Positions 21,495 through 30,505 of a DNA stretch of 34,538 nucleotides are shown here, in pieces. Every line of letters starts with the position of its first letter. Positions within the stretch are counted from its first letter, which is position 1. The notes under the pieces are model-generated. The model was not told the DNA's origin, made no database searches, and saw nothing but the letters and a program-made list of their open reading frames with translations. The position numbers and the translations under genes are program-made. The DNA is from an uncultured Gilliamella sp. Lineage in GTDB: Bacteria > Pseudomonadota > Gammaproteobacteria > Enterobacterales > Orbaceae. Location of the stretch: contig CAMLAI010000009.1 in NCBI GenBank assembly GCA_946477995.1, positions 1-34,538 of the forward strand, read 5' to 3'.

Positions 21495-22574
21495 ATGCAA
21501 AAAATTTTAAATGTGGCGCTAGCAAAACGTAGTTATCCTATTACTATTGGCGAAAATCTTTTAACTCAATTTAAACATTTCAAACTCCAGCCAGGTCAAC
21601 GTGTATTAATCGCAACCAATGACACCATTGCCCCACTATATTTACAAACTTTAATTCATATGCTTGAAGACAACGGTATAAAAACTGATTCTGTCATTTT
21701 GCCTGATGGTGAACAATATAAAACCATGGAAACATGGAATAAAATTCTTACCGCTTTGCTTGCCAATAATCATACGCGCAATTCCAGACTAATTGCATTA
21801 GGTGGTGGTGTTATTGGTGATGTCGCTGGATTTGCGGCATCAGCGTATCAACGAGGAATTAAATTTATACAGGTGCCCACAACTTTACTTTCGCAAGTGG
21901 ACTCGTCTGTTGGTGGTAAAACCGCCATTAATCACCCTCTTGGTAAAAATATGATTGGCGCATTTTATCAACCTCAATCAGTGGTTATCGATCTCAATTG
22001 TTTAAAAACGTTACCACAGCGTGAATTATCAGCAGGTCTGGCCGAAGTCATAAAATATGGCATTATTATGGATGCTGATTTTTTTAATTGGTTAGAATTG
22101 CACATTGACCAGTTACTTAAATTAGATGTCGAAGCACTCAGTTATTGCATTTATCGCTGCTGCGAACTCAAAGCACAGGTAGTTGCGGCCGACGAAACTG
22201 AACAAGATATGCGTGCAATTTTAAATCTGGGTCATACTTATGGTCATGCCATCGAAGCAGAATTAGGTTATGGTAATTGGTTACATGGTGAGGCTGTCAG
22301 TGTCGGTATGTTGATGGCTGCTCAAACAGCTAAACTGTTGGGTAAATTTACAACCGCTGATATTGATCGTATTAAAACACTGCTTATTAGAGCAAAACTT
22401 CCAGTTACCCGGCCATCTCAAATGACAAGTGATGCTTATATTCCTCACATGTTACGCGATAAAAAAGTTTTATCAGGCAAACTCAGGCTGGTTATTCCGA
22501 CACAAATTGGACAAGTTGAAGTGCTTGATGGCATTGATAAAAACATCGTCCTTGAGTCGATAGAACGAACATAA
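21495..22574 (+). CDS. aroB: 3-dehydroquinate synthase (AroB)
   Basis: AroB converts DAHP to 3-dehydroquinate, the second step of the shikimate pathway, with NAD+ and a divalent metal. With the ATG at 21495 ([16 protein letters not shown]) it is 359 residues, matching E. coli AroB (362). An in-frame ATG at 21417 would add 26 poorly conserved residues. The NAD-binding '[15 protein letters not shown]', the phosphate-site '[19 protein letters not shown]', 'GLAEVIKYG' (metal Glu), '[11 protein letters not shown]' and '[11 protein letters not shown]' (metal His residues) are all present. aroF, which makes its substrate, lies about 7 kb away. aroK, the frequent partner, is not adjacent. Confidence 0.96.
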
Positions 22575-22623
22575 TAATGTATATAATAGTGAATTATTAG
22601 ATTGGTAGTTAAGTATACAAAAT

Positions 22624-22649
22624 AAGGAGCACAGAAATCTGGCTCCTTT
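22624..22649. terminator. Hairpin between convergent aroB and MFS gene
   Basis: AAGGAGC (22624-22630) and GCTCCTT (22642-22648) pair perfectly, with an added AGA/TCT pairing in the loop. T-runs are short on both sides, so it is a likely but weak bidirectional terminator. Confidence 0.55.
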
Positions 22650-22670
22650 AGCTTAAATGCGAACTTATTA

Positions 22671-23897
22671 TTAATTGTTCGATTGTCTTTGTTTAGTAAA
22701 TTTATAAATCATGTTTAACACTAAGCCAACAAAGGCTACAGCGATCGCAATATAAAATGCGTAAGTATAACTGCCATTATTATTGATAAGGATATCCGCC
22801 GTTAATTTTGGTGCAAAAAATGCCGCTGAAGAATAACCCACAAAAATAATACCGTAGTTAACACCTTGGTGAATCGGTCCATAATTTTCCATAACCATTG
22901 GTGGGAACACGCCCATCACACCACCAAAGCATAAACCAAGCGCGATAATTCCTATTGCAAATCCTGCTTGTGTTGGAATAAATAAAAATGCCATAAAAGC
23001 CAAAATAATTACCGAAAAGATAATATCTAATGTTCGATTACGACCAAGTTTATCCGATACCGTTCCCCAAACAACTCGCCCAGCACAATTACTTAATGAA
23101 TATAAACTGACATAAAATGCTGCTGCCACAGAAGATAGCCCAAACATGTTTTGCCCAATACTCGATGCATTCGAAGCTATCATCAACCCAGAAAATGCAC
23201 CAGTACCTAACATAAAAAATATGAGGTAAAAATATGGCGTTTGTAGCATTTGTTGCCAATTTTTGTTAACAATAGGCGCATTTTGTTGGCTGTGTGCTTG
23301 AGTCCAACCTTGCGGTTGATAATTAGCGGGTGCTACCTTTATAAAGAAACTGGCAACAATAACCACAGCTATATAGGTACAACCTAGAATTTGGAAAGCA
23401 TATAGCACATCAAAACGCTCAATCAAATGGTTACCGATTGGTGCTGATATAATTGCAGCGCCCCCCATACCTGCTGTAATGATACCTGAAGCAAGACCTT
23501 TTTTATCAGGAAATAATTTAATGGTATTACTTAAACAGCCCGAATAAGCAAGCCCTTGACCAAAGCCACTTAATAAGCCATAAGTCACATAAAGCATTAG
23601 TGGACTGGTCACATAACCCGTCAGAAAAAAGCCTAGTCCAAACAGCAAACCACCTAAAACACTAGACCATTTAGCTAATCCTCTATCCGTTAAAAAGCCA
23701 CCTAAAATCATAGGAATTGGGCCAACAGCTGAATTAATAGCAAACGCTGTCATCACCTCTGACATACTCCAATTTTTAGCGGCACTTAAAGGACCGGCAA
23801 AAACACTAAAAGCATAAATCGCACCAGTACAAAGCAAGATTGATGTTGATGCTATCAGTACAAGCCATCGATTGAGATTTCTAGTTTGTTGTTCCAT
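22671..23897 (-). CDS. MFS transporter, OFA (oxalate:formate antiporter) family
   Basis: This is a 408-residue inner-membrane protein with about twelve transmembrane segments. The OFA subfamily is recognised from the start '[24 protein letters not shown]', the loop '[10 protein letters not shown]' between TM2 and TM3, '[12 protein letters not shown]' and '[11 protein letters not shown]' (about residue 130). The second half has '[14 protein letters not shown]'. OFA members exchange or import small mono- and dicarboxylates (oxalate/formate; pyruvate-induced YhjX in E. coli). The start overlaps the end of the upstream three-domain reductase gene by 17 bases, with GGAG 7 bases before the ATG, so the two are translationally linked. 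The most likely cargo is therefore the acid that the reductase uses, or its product. That is inference. Confidence 0.88.
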
Positions 23898-26337
23898 GTC
23901 CAGACTCCATTCTTGACTTGATATCTTTCAAAGCAGTTTTTCCCGCAATTCGTCCAAAGGTAAAAATATCGGTTAGTGAATTACCACCCAATCTATTACC
24001 CGCATGGATACCCCCTGCTACTTCTCCTGCCGCATATAAGCCAGAAATTTTTTGTCCTGATTTATCCAAAACATGGGTTTGTGTATCGATTTTTAGTCCA
24101 CCCATTGTATGATGCACCGCTGGTTTTCTTGGTGTTGCATAAAATGGAGCGACTTCTACTTTCAAATCAAATACATCTTTACCAAATTCAGGATCATACC
24201 CAGCATCAGCATACGCATTATAGTTGGCAATCGTTTGTTTAAAAATATCAGCATCCATTCCCAATTTTTCGGCCAATTCTTCTAAAGTGTCTGCACAAAA
24301 TAGCGTACCAGCCGCAATTTGCTTATCAATTTTTTCTTGTGATGTGTTGTAAGCCGTCTTTTTAATTTCTTCATCAGCTATTAAATAAAATAATCCACCA
24401 TTATCAATAGCGGCTTGTGTAAGTTTGTCTCGGCTGCCATATTCATTAACAAAACGTTTTCCTTGCTTGTTAACCATAATGAAATTTTGTGGTGGAACTT
24501 GTAACCCACTAAATAATGCCCCAGTCTCTGGGTCAGAAACAGGCATCATTTGTGAAAAGCCCATACCAACCAGATCCGCACCAACACTTTGTCCTAACAA
24601 AATACCATCACCAGTGATTGCCGGAGAATTAGAGGTTTTAATATTGTCATCAATTTCAGTCCAATAAGTGTTATACTCTTTGAGCATTTTGGTATTAGCA
24701 CCAAAACCACCCGATGCCAAAATGACAGCATCGGCTTTAACGGTAACTTTTTTACCATTTAAACCTTGTCCAATTACCCCAGACACATGCCCATCTTCAA
24801 CAATTAACGATTTAACAGCCGTATCGGTTATGATAATTCCTCCCTTATCTTCTACATATTTTTGCAATGCAGAAACATAAGCATAACCTTCACTTTTTAA
24901 CGGTTTATGACCTCGACGCCATAAAGCTCCTACTGGCATAGTGACATCATGTTTATCAAATTCAACACCAATATTTTCAAGCCATTTAACCGATTCTAGC
25001 GCCTCATCAGTCAAGATTTTAACCAGATCATATTGTCCATAAATTACATTTCCTAATTGGTCGGTACGCTTACCGCCAAGATAGGTTTGAATACGATGAA
25101 GTAGTGCCGAATCAAATAGGTAACCGGTTTTGCCTTTATTTTCTGATAAATAATCATTAATTTGCTGTTTTAAGCTTCTAAAATCTTGCAAATATTCAGG
25201 ATCAATCACGGACTCATCAATTGCTACTATTTCAGATAAAGTATGGCTTTCGCCCGCGATAGCATCGAAAGTATTTTGCCATTTAGGATTGGCGGCATTC
25301 ATTGGACCACCAGTACGGACAGTATTCCCACCAACGGCTGGAAATTTTTCAACAACGACAACGCGCTTGCCTTCTTGTAAAATACTTGCCGCGGCTGATA
25401 ATCCTGCACCACCAGCACCAACCACAACGACATCTGTTACATATTGCGCATCACTATTATCAAGCGCGCTTGGTGCTTTTGGTCTTTTCCTTAATACATC
25501 AGGATTAGCACCTGCCATTTTAATGGCTTTTGCCACACCATCAATAACACCATTACTTGTAACCGATGCACCAGAAATCAAATCGACATTCAGTGTCTGA
25601 CCTTCAAGGATTTGAGATGGAATACGTTTAAACACAACGTCAGCAATACCTTCTGACTCGCCTTCGGTATCAATATCAATCGATTCAATGCGGTCAGTTG
25701 ATAAAGTAACAACCATAGGTAAATCGCCATTATGACCCGGTGCTGTTACACAATATTTACCTGGTTCATACGAGATTTCTTCCGGCACATTAAGTAAATT
25801 GACAACTTGAGTAAATCGCAAAAAACGTAAAAAACAGCTTTCTAAAAAATCGACTGTTCGTTCTGATTTAAGATTACCTTGCTCATCAAAAGCTTGATGG
25901 GCTCGACCCAGTAAAAATTCAGAGCCCGGCATAACTGTTGCATTAACCCCTGGCGCATCAAGGATTTGACGTAAATGTAATTGTGCTCGAGAAGAGCCTT
26001 GTACATCATAAGATGCACCAACAATCATAACCGGTTTACCATCAAACGGATGCAAATTAAATGACAACCATTCAATGATACTTTTTAAGGCCGATGGAAT
26101 TGAGTGATTATGCTCTGGCGTGGCAAGAATAACACCATCTGCTTGAATAATTTTATTATTAAAATTCTGAATGATAGGACTATTAGATTGGTCATCTGAC
26201 TCATTAAACATTGGAACATCAGTCAACTCTAATATTTCAATTTCGGCTTTATGACTAAAATGTTTTTGCATAAATTGCAATAACATGCGGTTATAAGATT
26301 CTTGAGCATTTGTTCCTACTATACCAATAAATTTCAT
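23881..26337 (-). CDS. Three-domain flavin reductase of unsaturated carboxylic acids (CrdB-like)
   Basis: This 818-residue soluble flavoenzyme has no signal peptide. Domain 1 (1-190) is an NAD(P)H:FMN reductase ('IVGTN', '[19 protein letters not shown]', 'GSSRAQ'). Domain 2 (about 195-280) is FMN_bind, with the ApbE flavinylation motif '[10 protein letters not shown]' (acceptor Ser258). Domain 3 (about 300-815) is FAD_binding_2: '[15 protein letters not shown]', 'GGNTVRTGG', '[10 protein letters not shown]' (proton-donor Arg636), 'HHTMGG' and '[12 protein letters not shown]' (Arg782). Automatic annotation would say fumarate or urocanate reductase. However, the fumarate-binding His and Thr of flavocytochrome c3 align to Met and Gly. 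The layout matches Vibrio ruber CrdB, a cinnamate reductase subunit. I chose the ATG at 26337: it has AAGGAG and overlaps the upstream stop as ATGA. A start 33 bases earlier adds a spurious basic stretch. Confidence 0.85.
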
Positions 26338-26960
26338 AACGATGCTCCTTCTTCTGCGGCCTGTTTCCAACTAAATTTTTTATTTTGATCTGTATTAATT
26401 TTTGCTGTTTTGAGTAATTGATTAGTAATGGACACAAATAATAAAAATTCATCAAAGCATTCATCTAACTCTTTGACTTTATCAGCATAAACAAGATTAC
26501 CTTGATCATCAAAAGCCTGTAACGACTGCCCTAATAAAAACTCCGAGCTTGGCATAATTCGTGCTTTTAATTCTGGCGCATCCAAAATTTGGCGTAAATG
26601 AGCCTGTGCCCTTGATGACCCCAACATACCATGTGAAGCACCGACAATCATTACACATTTATTAATCAGAGGGCGGGTAGTATAAGACAACCACTCAATA
26701 ACACTTTTCAACGCAGCGGTAATGGAATGATCATATTCGGGAGTAGCAATAATCACACCATCTGCGGCTAGTATTTTATCCGATAGCTCTTTTACTGCTG
26801 CTGGCGGAGTTTTATCCTTAGGTTCATTAAATGCTGGTAATGATTTAATTTCACAGACCTCAATTTCTGCTTTTTCGGCAAAATGCGTTCGCATAAAATG
26901 CAGTAATTTTCTATTAGTAGAACGATCAGAATTCGTTCCGACTATAGCAACAAATTTCAC
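26334..26960 (-). CDS. Single-domain NAD(P)H:FMN reductase (CrdA-like partner subunit)
   Basis: This 208-residue flavodoxin-like protein of the NADPH-dependent FMN reductase/azoreductase family has '[15 protein letters not shown]' (phosphate loop), '[19 protein letters not shown]' (flavin/NAD loop) and '[20 protein letters not shown]'. It is about 55% identical by eye to the first domain of the next gene, so the two arose by duplication. The start codon is GTG, with GAGG 7 bases upstream. Its stop overlaps the next start (ATGA), a sign of equimolar synthesis. In Vibrio ruber Crd a single-domain subunit pairs with the larger one through these domains, so I infer a heterodimer here. It is first in an operon divergent from a LysR gene. 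Confidence 0.87.
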
Positions 26961-27156
26961 TTTAAAACCTCACTTAGTACCTTGCGGCACAATTTTGTTA
27001 ATATTTAATTTTCGTAATACAAATTCTTTAGCTAATCACACAAAATGGTAAAATAAATTCTTGTTCTATTAATTATGTTAATTATTGTGCAATATGATTT
27101 GTTATCTAGTGTAAAATAGAAAAAAATATTTGTGAAATAGCTGATTAATTATGGGG

Positions 27157-27176
27157 TTATAACTAATTTGTTATAA
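27157..27176. promoter_or_regulatory. Candidate LysR-type operator, TTATAAC-N6-GTTATAA
   Basis: This perfect 7-bp inverted repeat with a 6-base centre contains the T-N11-A core of LysR sites. It overlaps a TATAAT (27172-27177) just upstream of the lysR start, the usual place for autoregulation. It also lies about 200 bases upstream of the divergent FMN reductase gene. Confidence 0.5.
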
Positions 27177-27187
27177 TCTTAAAAAGG

Positions 27188-28129
27188 ATGAAAACAAGCG
27201 GAATGGCTAAAATTAATTCACTAATAATGCTGCAATATATTGATGTTTTAGTTAAGCATGGTAATTATACCAAAGCAGCACAAAACCTTTATATCTCGCA
27301 ATCTTACCTAACACAAACCATAAAAAAAATTGAAAATGAACTAGGTATTGAAATCATCAATCGACAAACCGTCCCATTACAGTTAACCGAAGCGGGAAAA
27401 ATTTATTATGAATATCTCACGTCGTTAGTCAACAAACAGGAACAGTTTAGAAAAAAAATCCAAAAATATACTGATACTAACTACACAGCAATTCAAATCG
27501 GTGTATTGCCAAGCTTAGGAACCTACTTATTACCTCTAGTTCTACCTGCTTTTATGCAAAAATATCCCAATATTAAAATCGAATTACATGAATATATGCC
27601 CAAAAACAGTGAAGAAAAAACCATTAACCAAACTCTCGATTTTTTTATTGGGCAAAATCCTGAAACAATATCCCCAAATTTAATTAGTCATAAATGTGGT
27701 AAACATCATTATTATGCACTTATACCAGAAAGTTCTAAACTTTATCGAAAAAAAACAAGTAATATTGAATGTAATCATTCTTTTATAAAAAAATTATTGC
27801 AAGAAAAACTTATTCTAACGTCTCACGGTTCAGGTATACGACAACAAATTGAATACCTCATTGCAAAATATAAGATTAAACCCGATATCGTACTTGAAAG
27901 CAGTAACATTTTTACTCTTGTCGAATTAGCAAAAAAAGGAATGGGGGTGACGTTTATTCCGGAAAGTGTCAATATCTGCGGAAAAACTGGCGATTTAGCA
28001 TATAATTTGATCCCCCTACCATTAGAATTCATCTCGTTAAGTTATTTCATTGCATATTCAGCAAATAAAATGCTTAGCGTGGCTGAAAAAGAATTCGTCA
28101 ACCTTTTCGTCTCTTCCTTTAATCAATAA
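27188..28129 (+). CDS. LysR-family transcriptional regulator
   Basis: This 313-residue regulator has an N-terminal winged helix-turn-helix (about residues 15-70: 'NYTKAAQNLYISQSYLTQTIKKIENELG', in part) and a LysR substrate-binding domain beginning 'IQIGVLPSLGTYLLPLVLPAFMQKYPNIKIELHE'. The C-terminal part 'ELAKKGMGVTFIPES' is typical of effector-sensing LTTRs. The start may be the ATG at 27188 or, more compatible with the TATAAT at 27172, the ATG at 27203 (MAKINSLIM); neither ribosome site is ideal. It is divergent from the FMN reductase/CrdB-like/MFS operon and convergent with apbE, so it is the likely regulator of that module. The effector would be an aromatic or other unsaturated acid (inference). 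Confidence 0.88.
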   Translation: MKTSGMAKINSLIMLQYIDVLVKHGNYTKAAQNLYISQSYLTQTIKKIENELGIEIINRQTVPLQLTEAGKIYYEYLTSLVNKQEQFRKKIQKYTDTNYTAIQIGVLPSLGTYLLPLVLPAFMQKYPNIKIELHEYMPKNSEEKTINQTLDFFIGQNPETISPNLISHKCGKHHYYALIPESSKLYRKKTSNIECNHSFIKKLLQEKLILTSHGSGIRQQIEYLIAKYKIKPDIVLESSNIFTLVELAKKGMGVTFIPESVNICGKTGDLAYNLIPLPLEFISLSYFIAYSANKMLSVAEKEFVNLFVSSFNQ

Positions 28130-28152
28130 TACAAAGATGAAAACTAAACGAG

Positions 28153-28168
28153 TGTTAACGCGGTAACA
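28153..28168. other. Near-perfect 16-bp palindrome between lysR and apbE
   Basis: TGTTAACG/CGGTAACA is a palindrome with one mismatched pair in the 51-base gap between the convergent lysR and apbE genes. No T-run follows on either strand. It may be a weak hairpin at both transcript ends. Confidence 0.25.
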
Positions 28169-28180
28169 TCATATAAATAC

Positions 28181-29101
28181 CTAGATCAATAGACCATTAG
28201 AACTAGCATATTCATGATTTTTGGTGATAACTATCCCTTCGATATGGTCAATTTTATTTATTTGCTTAATTACCTGTTGAGCAGAATAACCATATAATTG
28301 TGTAGTCCATATTTCGCCATCTATAGCATGCTCAGTCACAATAGTAATACTTTCAATATCGGTTTCAACTGGATAACCTGTTTGACTATCAAAAATATGA
28401 TGATAGGTTTTACCATTATAGTTAAATGTTCTTTCATAAATACCAGAAGTCACCACTGATTGATTTTGAATCTTCAAAACAGTAATCACATTGCCTCTGG
28501 TTAAGAAGGGATTTTGAATGCCTACTCGCCAATATCCATCATCATGAAAAGGACACGCCCCAAATGTTAATACATTTCCACCTAAATCAATATACGCTGC
28601 GTGAGCGTTTTGTTGTTTAAAAAATTCAATAACTTTATCAGCAAAATAACCTTTGGCTAACGCACCTAAATCGATTGCCATTCCAGAATGCTTTAACAAC
28701 ACGGATGAATTATCTTCATCTAAAAGAATATCATTAGGGTTAATGAGTGTTAAAAGCTGATTGATTTCTGAAACAGAAGGATATCTAGCATCACTAAAGC
28801 CAACCCGCCACGCTTGAATAAGTGGTCCTATTGCAATATTTAAAAAACTATTTTTTGCTAAACTCTGAGTTTTGCCTATTTTTATTAATCTAAAAAGATC
28901 AGATTGCAGTTTTACGGGTTTAATACCCGCATTAAGATTAACCTGCATTAATTGAGAATCTAAGCGATTAGCACTAAAGCGCTGTTCGTAGTCGATTAAC
29001 ATTTTTTGAGCTTGATTCAATAAGTGTTCAACCTCATCATGTTCTAGCCATATTTGAATCTTCGTGCCCATCAAATTAAGCAAGCGCTTACCTTGGTTCA
29101 T
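28181..29101 (-). CDS. apbE: Cytosolic FAD:protein FMN transferase (ApbE)
   Basis: ApbE transfers FMN from FAD to a Thr/Ser hydroxyl in target FMN_bind domains. The 306-residue protein starts directly with 'LLNLMGTKIQIWLEH' (the family's early 'MGT' motif). It shows 'FLNIAIGPLIQAW', 'DLGALAKGYFADKV', 'YIDLGGNVLTFG', 'VVTSGIYERTF' and 'HIFDSQTGYPVET'. The metal-site region is present as 'AIDGEIWTTQLYG'. Most ApbE proteins are exported lipoproteins, but this one has no signal peptide or lipobox, so it should act in the cytosol. That fits the cytosolic FMN_bind-containing reductase encoded 2 kb away, its likely target. It converges on lysR, so it has its own promoter. Confidence 0.9.
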   Translation of the reverse strand: MNQGKRLLNLMGTKIQIWLEHDEVEHLLNQAQKMLIDYEQRFSANRLDSQLMQVNLNAGIKPVKLQSDLFRLIKIGKTQSLAKNSFLNIAIGPLIQAWRVGFSDARYPSVSEINQLLTLINPNDILLDEDNSSVLLKHSGMAIDLGALAKGYFADKVIEFFKQQNAHAAYIDLGGNVLTFGACPFHDDGYWRVGIQNPFLTRGNVITVLKIQNQSVVTSGIYERTFNYNGKTYHHIFDSQTGYPVETDIESITIVTEHAIDGEIWTTQLYGYSAQQVIKQINKIDHIEGIVITKNHEYASSNGLLI

Positions 29102-29209
29102 TTTGCTTTGTTCCTAAAATTAATATCTTAATACCTTACAATGATAAAATAGGAAAATCTAGCCATCACCAAAGACTTGTTAATAATAAATCATTTCAAA
29201 CATATAAAG

Positions 29210-29227
29210 TGTAAATATTTCATTACA
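29210..29227. promoter_or_regulatory. TyrR-box-like site 1 upstream of aroF
   Basis: TGTAAA-N6-ATTACA matches the TyrR consensus TGTAAA-N6-TTTACA at 11 of 12 positions. A weaker half-site TGTAAA follows at 29234-29239, 24 bases on. Confidence 0.6.
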
Positions 29228-29330
29228 ATAAAGTGTAAAATAGCTTTTCTGGTATAGAAAAAATCAAAAAAACATCGATTATACCAACATTAAATTATTA
29301 TCTTTGTAAAATTCACAAAATATCATTTAC

Positions 29331-29336
29331 TATAAT
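29331..29336 (+). promoter_or_regulatory. Candidate -10 of aroF
   Basis: A perfect TATAAT about 85 bases upstream of aroF. No convincing -35 sits at the proper spacing. A TyrR-box-like site begins at its last base. The 318-base apbE/aroF gap otherwise contains only TyrR-like sites. Confidence 0.45.
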
Positions 29337-29353
29337 GTAATTTTGTGTTTACA
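29336..29353. promoter_or_regulatory. TyrR-box-like site 2 upstream of aroF
   Basis: TGTAAT-N6-TTTACA matches the TyrR consensus at 11 of 12 positions. It touches the -10 hexamer and covers the predicted transcript start, a repressing position. Confidence 0.65.
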
Positions 29354-29367
29354 TATTAACCGTTAAT

Positions 29368-29385
29368 TGTAATATTTTTTTTACA
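29368..29385. promoter_or_regulatory. TyrR-box-like site 3 upstream of aroF
   Basis: A second TGTAAT-N6-TTTACA, 32 bases (about three helical turns) after site 2 and 34 bases before the aroF start codon. Confidence 0.6.
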
Positions 29386-29419
29386 AAAAAGTTTAAATGA
29401 TTTTAACTAGGAAAATACA

Positions 29420-30505
29420 ATGTTAAAAGACACACTGAATAATGTTCGAATTCGAGATGAACACATGCTCATTACACCTGATGAAATAAAAAAACTTTAT
29501 CCATTATCAAGTGAGTTAGAAAAACAAATTAGTTTATCTAGACAAACAGTCGTTGATATTTTAGAACGCCGCGATCACCGGCTACTTGTTGTTTGTGGCC
29601 CTTGCTCAATTCATGATACCGATGCTGCAATTGAGTATGCGCATCGATTAAAAAAACTTTCAGATGAAGTAAAAGATAATCTATTTATTGTGATGCGTGT
29701 TTATTTTGAAAAACCAAGAACCACCGTTGGTTGGAAAGGCATGATCAACGATCCACATATGGATAGTTCATTTGATATTGAATATGGTCTAAAAAAAGCA
29801 CGAAAATTATTACTGGATATCGCGCAAATTGGCTTGCCAATGGCAACAGAAGCTTTAGATCCTAACACTCCACAGTATATCGGTGACTTAATTAGTTGGT
29901 CTGCTATCGGTGCAAGAACCACTGAATCACAAACACATCGAGAAATGGCTTCTGGATTATCGATGCCAGTTGGTTTTAAAAATGGAACAGATGGCAGTTT
30001 AGATGTTGCAATCAATGCGATGAAATCAGCGTCTATGGCACATCGTTTTGTTGGTATCAATCAACAAGGGCAAGTTACTGTCCTACAGACAATGGGTAAT
30101 CCACACGGGCATGTTATTTTACGTGGTGGAAAAACGCCAAACTATGATGCTCAAAACGTATCATTATGTGAAATTCAAATGAAAAAAGCCGGTTTAGTAC
30201 CAAATTTAATGATTGATTGTAGCCACGCTAATTCCAATAAAGATTATCGTAATCAACCAATTGTAGCTAATTCAATTATTGAGCAAATTGAGAACGGTAA
30301 TAATTCAATTATTGGGGTTATGATTGAAAGTAACTTATTTGAAGGTAATCAATCGTCAGAACAACCAAAAGAAAACTTTAAATATGGTGTATCGGTTACT
30401 GATGCTTGTATTAATTGGGACAGCACTGATGAGTTATTACGAAAAATGAATAGCTTGTTAGCTGAGCCTTTATTAAAAAGACAACAACAACCAATAACCG
30501 CTTAA
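29420..30505 (+). CDS. aroF: DAHP synthase, tyrosine-type (AroF)
   Basis: AroF condenses PEP and erythrose-4-phosphate to DAHP, the entry to the shikimate pathway. The 361-residue protein follows E. coli AroF (356 aa) most closely. It starts 'MLKDTLNNV' with the Asn8 linked to tyrosine inhibition in AroF. It then has the metal Cys62 in 'CGPCSIHD', 'MRVYFEKPRTTVGWKG', 'ATEALDPNTPQY', 'GARTTESQTHRE', 'GFKNGTDGS', and 'DCSHANSNKD' with 'IGVMIESNLFEGNQ'. AGGA precedes the ATG by 8 bases. TyrR-like boxes upstream support tyrosine control. No tyrA follows, unlike E. coli aroF-tyrA. Confidence 0.94.
   Translation: MLKDTLNNVRIRDEHMLITPDEIKKLYPLSSELEKQISLSRQTVVDILERRDHRLLVVCGPCSIHDTDAAIEYAHRLKKLSDEVKDNLFIVMRVYFEKPRTTVGWKGMINDPHMDSSFDIEYGLKKARKLLLDIAQIGLPMATEALDPNTPQYIGDLISWSAIGARTTESQTHREMASGLSMPVGFKNGTDGSLDVAINAMKSASMAHRFVGINQQGQVTVLQTMGNPHGHVILRGGKTPNYDAQNVSLCEIQMKKAGLVPNLMIDCSHANSNKDYRNQPIVANSIIEQIENGNNSIIGVMIESNLFEGNQSSEQPKENFKYGVSVTDACINWDSTDELLRKMNSLLAEPLLKRQQQPITA

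Follow-up and report, generated by a model that had tools for sequence, protein, structure and literature searches.

What does a compact block of five genes for a flavin-dependent reductase do in a Gilliamella bacterium, and how did it come to be there? The block occupies positions 22671-29101 of contig CAMLAI010000009.1 from an uncultured Gilliamella sp. (assembly GCA_946477995.1), of which positions 1 to 34,538 were analyzed and are referred to here as the window. An earlier note on the bare sequence had described a reductase of two subunits with its own transporter, regulator and maturase. The open reading frame (ORF) coordinates and Pfam matches bear out the gene set, the ATGA coupling of the reductase genes, the overlap with the transporter gene, the divergent LysR gene and the leaderless ApbE, all where the note had placed them. 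The supposed Orbaceae host is confirmed as well, since the contig is from Gilliamella and its closest named relatives are also Gilliamella. Taken together, the evidence favors a horizontally acquired reductase module of the hcr/crd type, for cinnamate and hydroxycinnamates and driven by reduced nicotinamide adenine dinucleotide (NADH), with a probability of roughly 0.8. The five genes, with flavin mononucleotide and flavin adenine dinucleotide abbreviated as FMN and FAD, are:

26334-26960, minus strand: crdA/hcrA-like gene, 208 amino acids (aa), GTG start, single-domain NAD(P)H:FMN reductase (FMN_red, PF03358, 1.4e-36)
23881-26337, minus strand: crdB/hcrB-like gene, catalytic subunit, 818 aa, with the Pfam domains FMN_red (1-148), FMN_bind (201-273) and FAD_binding_2 (302-788)
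22671-23897, minus strand: major facilitator superfamily (MFS) transporter of the SfMCT (monocarboxylate) type, 408 aa, matching model NF049980
27188-28129 (or from 27206), plus strand: LysR-type regulator, HcrR-like (PF00126 and PF03466)
28181-29101, minus strand: apbE, leaderless FAD:protein FMN transferase, 306 aa (PF02424, 3.3e-71, 240 bits)

Transcription of the minus strand proceeds through crdA, crdB and the MFS gene, which overlaps crdB by 17 bases; lysR is divergent and apbE lies beyond it. The inner ATG at 27206 is a possible alternative start for LysR; a Gilliamella homologue begins MAKINS. No Rfam family was detected in 22500-29500. All five genes are present at 100% identity on contig CALYPO010000011.1 of a Gilliamella metagenome-assembled genome (MAG) and at 97-100% identity in Gilliamella sp. 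wkB171. Since other genomes contain the same genes as a unit, and a full-length CrdB was found in 13 of the 35 Gilliamella genomes searched, it is not a chance arrangement.

The closest biochemically validated enzyme is HcrAB of Lactiplantibacillus plantarum. A cluster among the compared loci (L134), taken as the L. plantarum type on its gene lengths, encodes a LysR protein of 315 aa, an HcrA of 204 aa (FMN_red), a three-domain HcrB of 812 aa and an HcrC of 186 aa, and these lengths equal those given for hcrRABC of strain WCFS1 in Table 2 of PMC11126511. The domain plan, the near-equal gene lengths and the divergent LysR gene are common to both systems. Window CrdB is 71% identical to the L134 HcrB over 797 residues, CrdA is 67% identical to HcrA, and the regulator is 47% identical to the 315-aa LysR beside hcrA. 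For HcrB, hydroxycinnamate reductase activity is described as validated biochemically, conversion being partial (PMC10295242).

The earlier note had named the Vibrio ruber enzyme as the sole characterised relative with this plan, a claim that does not survive the comparison with HcrAB. CrdAB of V. ruber is reportedly an NADH:(hydroxy)cinnamate reductase and a heterodimer with FMN in each FMN_red domain, a covalent FMN and FAD; its two-subunit plan recurs in the window, where the corresponding domains and motifs are present. Its type is represented here by 11 loci of a genus named as Vibrio by inference, with CrdB proteins 67-68% identical to the window enzyme and just 62-64% identical to HcrB (11/11). 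Window CrdB is therefore nearer to HcrB and to the Vibrio type than those two are to one another. Higher identities were found in Enterococcus locus L030, at 82% for CrdB, 74% for CrdA and 59% each for LysR and ApbE. A scan of named genomes yielded 207 relatives, of which the best 80 are the named loci used here. CrdA is the upstream, same-strand neighbor of CrdB in 78 of these 80, in all 26 Lactobacillaceae loci compared (from a search of 301 genomes; six repeat named loci) and in all 11 Vibrio loci. An AlphaFold model of CrdB had a mean predicted local distance difference test score (pLDDT) of 74.3 and a predicted template modeling score (pTM) of 0.61, with low values around the cofactor sites.

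The substrate pocket was examined by aligning CrdB with the fumarate reductase Fcc3 of Shewanella and its relatives, and conservation was counted over 119 CrdB rows, eight of which repeat the same locus. Two features are of importance:

24484-24546, minus strand: substrate-pocket stretch from M598 to N618, by alignment to Fcc3 and relatives
24430-24432, minus strand: R636, equivalent of the proton-donor arginine of Fcc3 (R401/402)

Fcc3 and UrdA of Shewanella belong to the same FAD-domain family as CrdB and have in common with it the arginine proton donor and the carboxylate-binding histidine and arginine, while their electron-entry domains differ. R636, His742, His743 and Arg782 of the NRLGGN motif are kept in 119/119 rows. 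The residues of Fcc3 that hold the second carboxylate of fumarate and form the proton path are, in contrast, replaced: M235 by P468, H364 by M598, M374 by L608, T376 by S610, E377 by G611 and R380 by P615. M598, G611 and P615 are invariant in all 119 rows and position 610 is Ser in 96 and Thr in 23. The six new residues are identical in HcrB and in both aligned Vibrio enzymes, and the set is common to the representatives from Enterococcus, Clostridium, Streptococcus and Vibrio. From these substitutions, CrdB is probably suited to a monocarboxylate with a less polar tail.

Two activities were rejected on the pocket. A fumarate reductase was discarded on the replacement of His364/365, Thr376/377, Glu377/378 and Arg380/381 of Fcc3 by Met598, Ser610, Gly611 and Pro615. 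A urocanate reductase was discarded on the residue at the Fcc3 H364 position, which is Met598 in CrdB and Tyr in UrdA, the latter being compared by its published description (PMC7921117). Gilliamella has a separate core reductase composed of an old yellow enzyme (OYE) domain and FAD_binding_2 by Pfam (L017). It keeps the His, Glu and Arg of the fumarate pocket in 9/9 loci compared (eight non-carriers of the module and carrier G001), with Ser for Thr, Leu for Met374 and Thr for Met235. Since the core enzyme keeps this pocket and CrdB has lost it, fumarate is probably served elsewhere in the cell.

A further reductase of about 1010 aa was observed in two Gilliamella genomes (L016 of G027, C1:1472448-1474340, and G016:C73:63501-65363). 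Across its last two domains, it shares 58% identity with CrdB. L016 is composed of OYE, FMN_bind and FAD_binding_2 domains and has a Crd-like pocket with Thr for Ser610, and in G027 an ApbE gene (L194) whose product is 46% identical to that of the module lies beside it. Matches like L016 occur frequently in the putative Vibrio genus. This enzyme may be an acrylate-type reductase.

The presence of an ApbE gene raises the matter of covalent flavin. Covalent FMN was predicted on CrdB from D-x-x-[ST]-G-A-[ST], which we take to be the flavinylation motif:

25564-25584, minus strand: predicted covalent-FMN site D252-x-x-S255-G-A-S258, with S258 as acceptor

The motif is present in 118 of the 119 rows, once as D-x-x-S-G-A-T; D252 is kept in 119/119, S255 in 118 (Ala in one), and position 258 is Ser in 118 and Thr in one. 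The module ApbE begins with MNQGKRLLNLMGTKIQ and has no leader. An ApbE gene lies within 6 kb of CrdB in 46 of the 80 named loci and in all 11 Vibrio loci; the Lactobacillaceae stretches L104-L129 are too short to show one. The L. plantarum-type genome holds three ApbE genes, all away from the hcr cluster. Since HcrB also has the motif, this suggests that it too needs covalent FMN. The ApbE of E. coli is periplasmic, and missing flavinylation, as well as oxygen, may therefore account for the low activity of HcrB made in that host. The purified L. plantarum protein from E. coli is described as proteolysed and weakly active, with oxygen sensitivity suggested, and ApbE occurs nowhere in the main text of that 2023 review (PMC10295242). 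As a separate observation, the single genome-wide ApbE match of carrier G012 (L191) is that of the module, and a core-type reductase match is also present; the acquired ApbE may serve both reductases there.

The transporter had been described as OFA-type, an assignment that falls with its score against the OFA model TIGR00890 (230.8 bits, cut-off 374.85). It also fails the OxlT model TIGR04259 (162.2 bits, cut-off 335) and passes the curated SfMCT L-lactate model NF049980 (420.1 bits, cut-off 320). An MFS homologue is found directly 3' of CrdB in 25 of the 80 named loci and divergently beside CrdA in 15.

LysR is divergent from CrdA in 54 of the 80 named loci, and the region between the two genes was compared over 80 distinct intergenic stretches with expectations derived from shuffled sequences. 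Three elements were identified:

27159-27174, minus strand: predicted LysR operator ATAACAAATTAGTTAT, an ATAA-N8-TTAT dyad, from its conservation in the intergenic stretches
27149-27162, minus strand: second dyad TTAT-N6-ATAA, activation-site-like, between the operator and the -35 box (27/80 stretches)
27108-27136, minus strand: predicted crdA promoter TTCACA-N17-TACACT, from its conservation in the intergenic stretches

The exact operator pattern occurs in 7/7 Gilliamella stretches (0.6 expected), 11/11 Vibrio (0.4), 20/20 clostridial or paenibacillar (1.6) and 22/42 Lactobacillales (2.0). Of the 22 Lactobacillales operators, 19 keep register with the second dyad, and the other three appear to be chance matches. 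A dyad spacing of 8 is found in 60 of the 80 stretches, compared with 1-7 for each of the other spacings from 4 to 13. The L. plantarum-type operator, ATAG-N8-TTAT, differs by one mismatch. When four repeats are included, the second dyad is present in 28 of 84 stretches against 4.7 expected. The promoter, as TT[CT]ACA-N17-TANACT, is present in 7/7 Gilliamella and in 31 of the 42 distinct Lactobacillales stretches; over the 46 Lactobacillales stretches that include repeats, the pattern is found at a spacer of 17 alone, with none at 14-16 or 18-20 and 0.02 expected. Both the operator and the promoter pattern were recognized in the very loci over which they were then tallied, and loci related to each other do not count as independent evidence.

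Two further comparisons bear on the promoter. The block of L120 and L134, the latter being the L. plantarum-type locus, scored 31.5 bits with a matrix trained without them, against a shuffle 99.9% level of 6.7. Within the genus, a 24-base promoter core without mismatch is present in 13/13 carriers and in 0/22 non-carriers. Allowing up to two mismatches brought in 12 scattered hits from the genus, a number similar to that for a reversed control, so just the 13 exact hits are meaningful. A simple promoter scan found no excess of sites (27 against a shuffle mean of 31.8); it does list TTCACA-N17-TACACT, and the weight of this promoter comes from conservation. Since the non-coding stretch is conserved between phyla, the comparison points to a regulator and promoter that travelled with the genes. 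In the clostridial and Vibrio branch (L152-L162 and clostridial or paenibacillar loci among L079-L103), a different block, often containing a CTATTAGATA stretch, follows the shared operator, which suggests that this branch has a promoter type of its own.

How widely is the module distributed? The 80 named loci come first from Gilliamella, then from Enterococcus, Vagococcus, Amphibacillus, Lactobacillaceae, Streptococcus, Clostridium, Lacrimispora, Paenibacillus and others. The five-gene layout of the window is found in 20 of them, six from Gilliamella and 14 from elsewhere (eight Enterococcus, two Vagococcus, two Lapidilactobacillus, one Amphibacillus and one Lacticaseibacillus); in two of the 14 a gene is split into two frames. 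The Enterococcus and Vagococcus loci (L030, L033, L035 and others) match the window in their order of ApbE, LysR, CrdA, CrdB and MFS and in their promoter block, and differ in having a Bacillota host; we know of no functional test for them. The earlier suggestion of a self-contained system thus stands insofar as the five genes are together, but the layout is not peculiar to this host. In the 11 Vibrio loci and the clostridial loci, ApbE, LysR, CrdA and CrdB are present with no carrier in place; ApbE and LysR adjoin in all 11 of the Vibrio type. Among the streptococcal named loci, MFS is divergent from CrdA in 15 of 24 and neither LysR nor ApbE is near in any.

Within the order, the two-subunit type was found in 7 of 394 genomes at E 1e-100, all of them Gilliamella. 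The genus taken as Vibrio, of the same order, has it unbroken in 11 of 227 genomes and in two pieces in a twelfth (G1240). Among 368 further genomes drawn evenly from the class, no relative was found at E 1e-50, a weak negative given that at most two candidates were scored per genome.

A CrdB tree was calculated from 127 rows, 119 of them different, by a quick method with Shimodaira-Hasegawa-like approximate likelihood ratio test (SH-aLRT) support only, a midpoint root and long-branch warnings. The window, HcrB and Vibrio enzymes all fall in one supported two-subunit clade, apart from the OYE type. All eight Gilliamella rows form one group (100), nested in a 17-row clade (97) of Enterococcus, Vagococcus, Amphibacillus and others. 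For the 11 Vibrio rows, the surrounding clade is one with Clostridium, Lacrimispora and Paenibacillus (100). A common origin with the Vibrio genes was rejected on this placement in different Bacillota clades. The simplest reading is that of two separate entries into Pseudomonadota, the Gilliamella block having apparently been acquired from lactic-acid-type bacteria. In trees of MFS, LysR, ApbE and CrdA, Gilliamella forms one group among Bacillota copies each time; these trees, read in the excerpts around the window, hold CrdB-linked copies alone and hardly test independent histories. The CrdA tree leaves the neighbors of Gilliamella unresolved, and the ApbE tree places the ApbE of Vagococcus fluvialis elsewhere than its CrdB.

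The site of entry was located by comparing genomes within Gilliamella. In 12 of the 13 carriers, aroB and aroG share a contig and are separated by 6.0-6.9 kb, compared with 281-1412 bases in 20 of the 22 non-carriers; in the remaining three genomes (one carrier, two non-carriers) they are on different contigs. The block is therefore either present or absent at a single aroB-aroG site in the genus. An assembly artefact or contamination was rejected, four carriers being single-contig assemblies with the block at this site. An additional, empty copy of the site in carrier MAG G015 may stem from the 5% contamination of that assembly. In non-carrier G021, a LysR scar of 68 bases remains at the otherwise empty site (L176, 252-320; 75% match, E 4e-5, protein E 0.001) in the expected orientation, so the module was probably lost in at least one lineage. 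No remnant of the module beyond the aroG leader was found at the other 12 of the 13 empty sites examined among the 22 non-carriers. In G023, the same site (L173, 280-1239) is occupied by two ORFs in tandem, each of about 150 aa and with an N-terminus resembling that of a lipoprotein, and thus receives other cargo too.

From this study, a working sequence of events can be proposed for the module. p-Coumarate, caffeate, ferulate or cinnamate would enter the cell, probably helped by the MFS carrier. LysR, on the ATAA-N8-TTAT operator, would sense the acid and activate the TTCACA-N17-TACACT promoter. CrdA and CrdB would be made together, with ApbE attaching FMN to Ser258 of CrdB in the cytosol. 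NADH would reduce the FMN of the FMN_red domain or domains, and electrons would pass through the covalent FMN to FAD, where the alkene would be reduced with Arg636 as the proton donor to give the phenylpropionate and NAD+. Observed here are the genes themselves, the resemblance to a characterised enzyme, the residues of the pocket and of the motif, the conserved control region, the insertion site and the tree position; we infer the substrate, direction of transport, induction, flavinylation, electron path and complex formation. Pollen provides a plausible supply: its coat phenolamides are described as built from p-coumarate and caffeate, and the gut microbiota of bees encounters coumaroyl and caffeoyl amides (PMC5726620).

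Several observations weigh against the proposal that this module reduces cinnamates in the bee gut. In mono-colonised bees, Firm-5 alone, and not Gilliamella, is described as depleting pollen phenolamides (PMC5726620); Gilliamella could cross-feed on the acids freed from them. In Apis cerana fed p-coumaric acid, Gilliamella abundance is given as unchanged (PMC13115751). An hcrB-like gene is described as not always predictive of the reduction phenotype, and cinnamic acid as inducing hcrB without being a substrate (PMC10295242). The L. plantarum-type cluster adjoins neither MFS nor ApbE and has hcrC 3' of hcrB, whereas Gilliamella has both of the former and no hcrC, the gene after crdB being that of the transporter; HcrC is not known to define the activity. 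The transporter is not strictly needed, since two of the 13 carriers, G007 and G032, lack it and have aroB next after crdB. The promoter block was found in none of the clostridial and Vibrio stretches, though they have the operator in common. Finally, the pocket residues cannot choose between cinnamates and smaller enoates because the OYE-type enzymes of Gilliamella (L016) and Vibrio share nearly the same set, with Thr at 610. No report of such a reductase was found in one limited search for papers on Gilliamella and coumaric compounds. With these points considered, the earlier note was probably correct about the main function, the flavin-based reduction of an unsaturated carboxylic acid, for which an aromatic one is the likeliest acceptor; it erred in its claim of uniqueness.

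The alternative that survives best concerns the role of CrdA, which may be a mere folding or stability partner of a CrdB that does the chemistry alone, with no electron chain through two reductases. V. ruber Crd is said to hold FMN in both subunits, the FMN_red motifs look intact in the window, and CrdA lies beside CrdB in 115 of 117 loci (six counted twice), all of which argue for more than a structural role. HcrA of L. plantarum is, however, described as inactive by itself and proposed to stabilise HcrB, with HcrB alone as the minimum requirement in E. coli extracts (PMC10295242), so this explanation keeps a real chance, if somewhat short of even. Rather unlikely is a role chiefly in the detoxification of phenolic acids, or an action on other phenolics, that brings no energetic benefit. 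In favor of it, hcrAB is described as induced also by oleuropein and gallic acid (PMC10295242); against it, NADH-dependent, flavin-based reduction would re-oxidise NADH whatever its purpose.

Improbable, at long odds, is a natural substrate from among other monocarboxylic enoates (acrylate, methacrylate or crotonate) that would enter through a lactate-type carrier, with cinnamates as side substrates. The model for such an enzyme would be ARD, reportedly an acrylate reductase of Vibrio. The match of the transporter to the lactate carrier model and the pocket signature that is mostly shared with OYE-type enzymes would fit, as would the moderate activity that V. ruber Crd is said to have on acrylate. 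CrdB groups, however, with the two-subunit HcrB and Vibrio enzymes and not with the OYE type, and its promoter block is common to the hydroxycinnamate-induced hcr locus. A soluble NADH:fumarate reductase for fermentative redox balance is very hard to sustain. CrdB has the fold family and catalytic residues of fumarate reductases and passes the flavocytochrome c model TIGR01813, but every one of the six Fcc3 pocket residues compared is replaced and the core enzyme keeps the fumarate-pocket His, Glu and Arg.

The (hydroxy)cinnamate reductase reading may be extended, tentatively and with the odds against the whole, to a transferable anaerobic-respiration island of reductase, cytosolic maturase, carrier, regulator and promoter. 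Such an island would have crossed from Bacillota to Pseudomonadota at least twice, into Gilliamella from an Enterococcus/Vagococcus-like source and into Vibrio from a clostridial-like one. In the bee, Firm-5 lactobacilli would release hydroxycinnamates from pollen phenolamides, and these would serve Gilliamella as electron acceptors; the MFS carrier would take up the acid in exchange for the phenylpropionate product.

The kind of enzyme is known; what was unexpected is the Gilliamella host and a control region that travels. What is new is that the block carries its own control region, with an operator that recurs in Vibrio, clostridial or paenibacillar and Lactobacillales loci and a promoter in common with lactic acid bacteria. 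L. plantarum HcrAB and V. ruber Crd, as the latter is reported, are tied into one family with a common regulatory site. The parts list at the level of the module makes the maturation and transport steps testable, and co-production with ApbE offers a simple test of the weak activity of HcrB after production in E. coli. For Gilliamella, as a core bee symbiont, the module provides a concrete candidate route for the anaerobic use of pollen phenolics.

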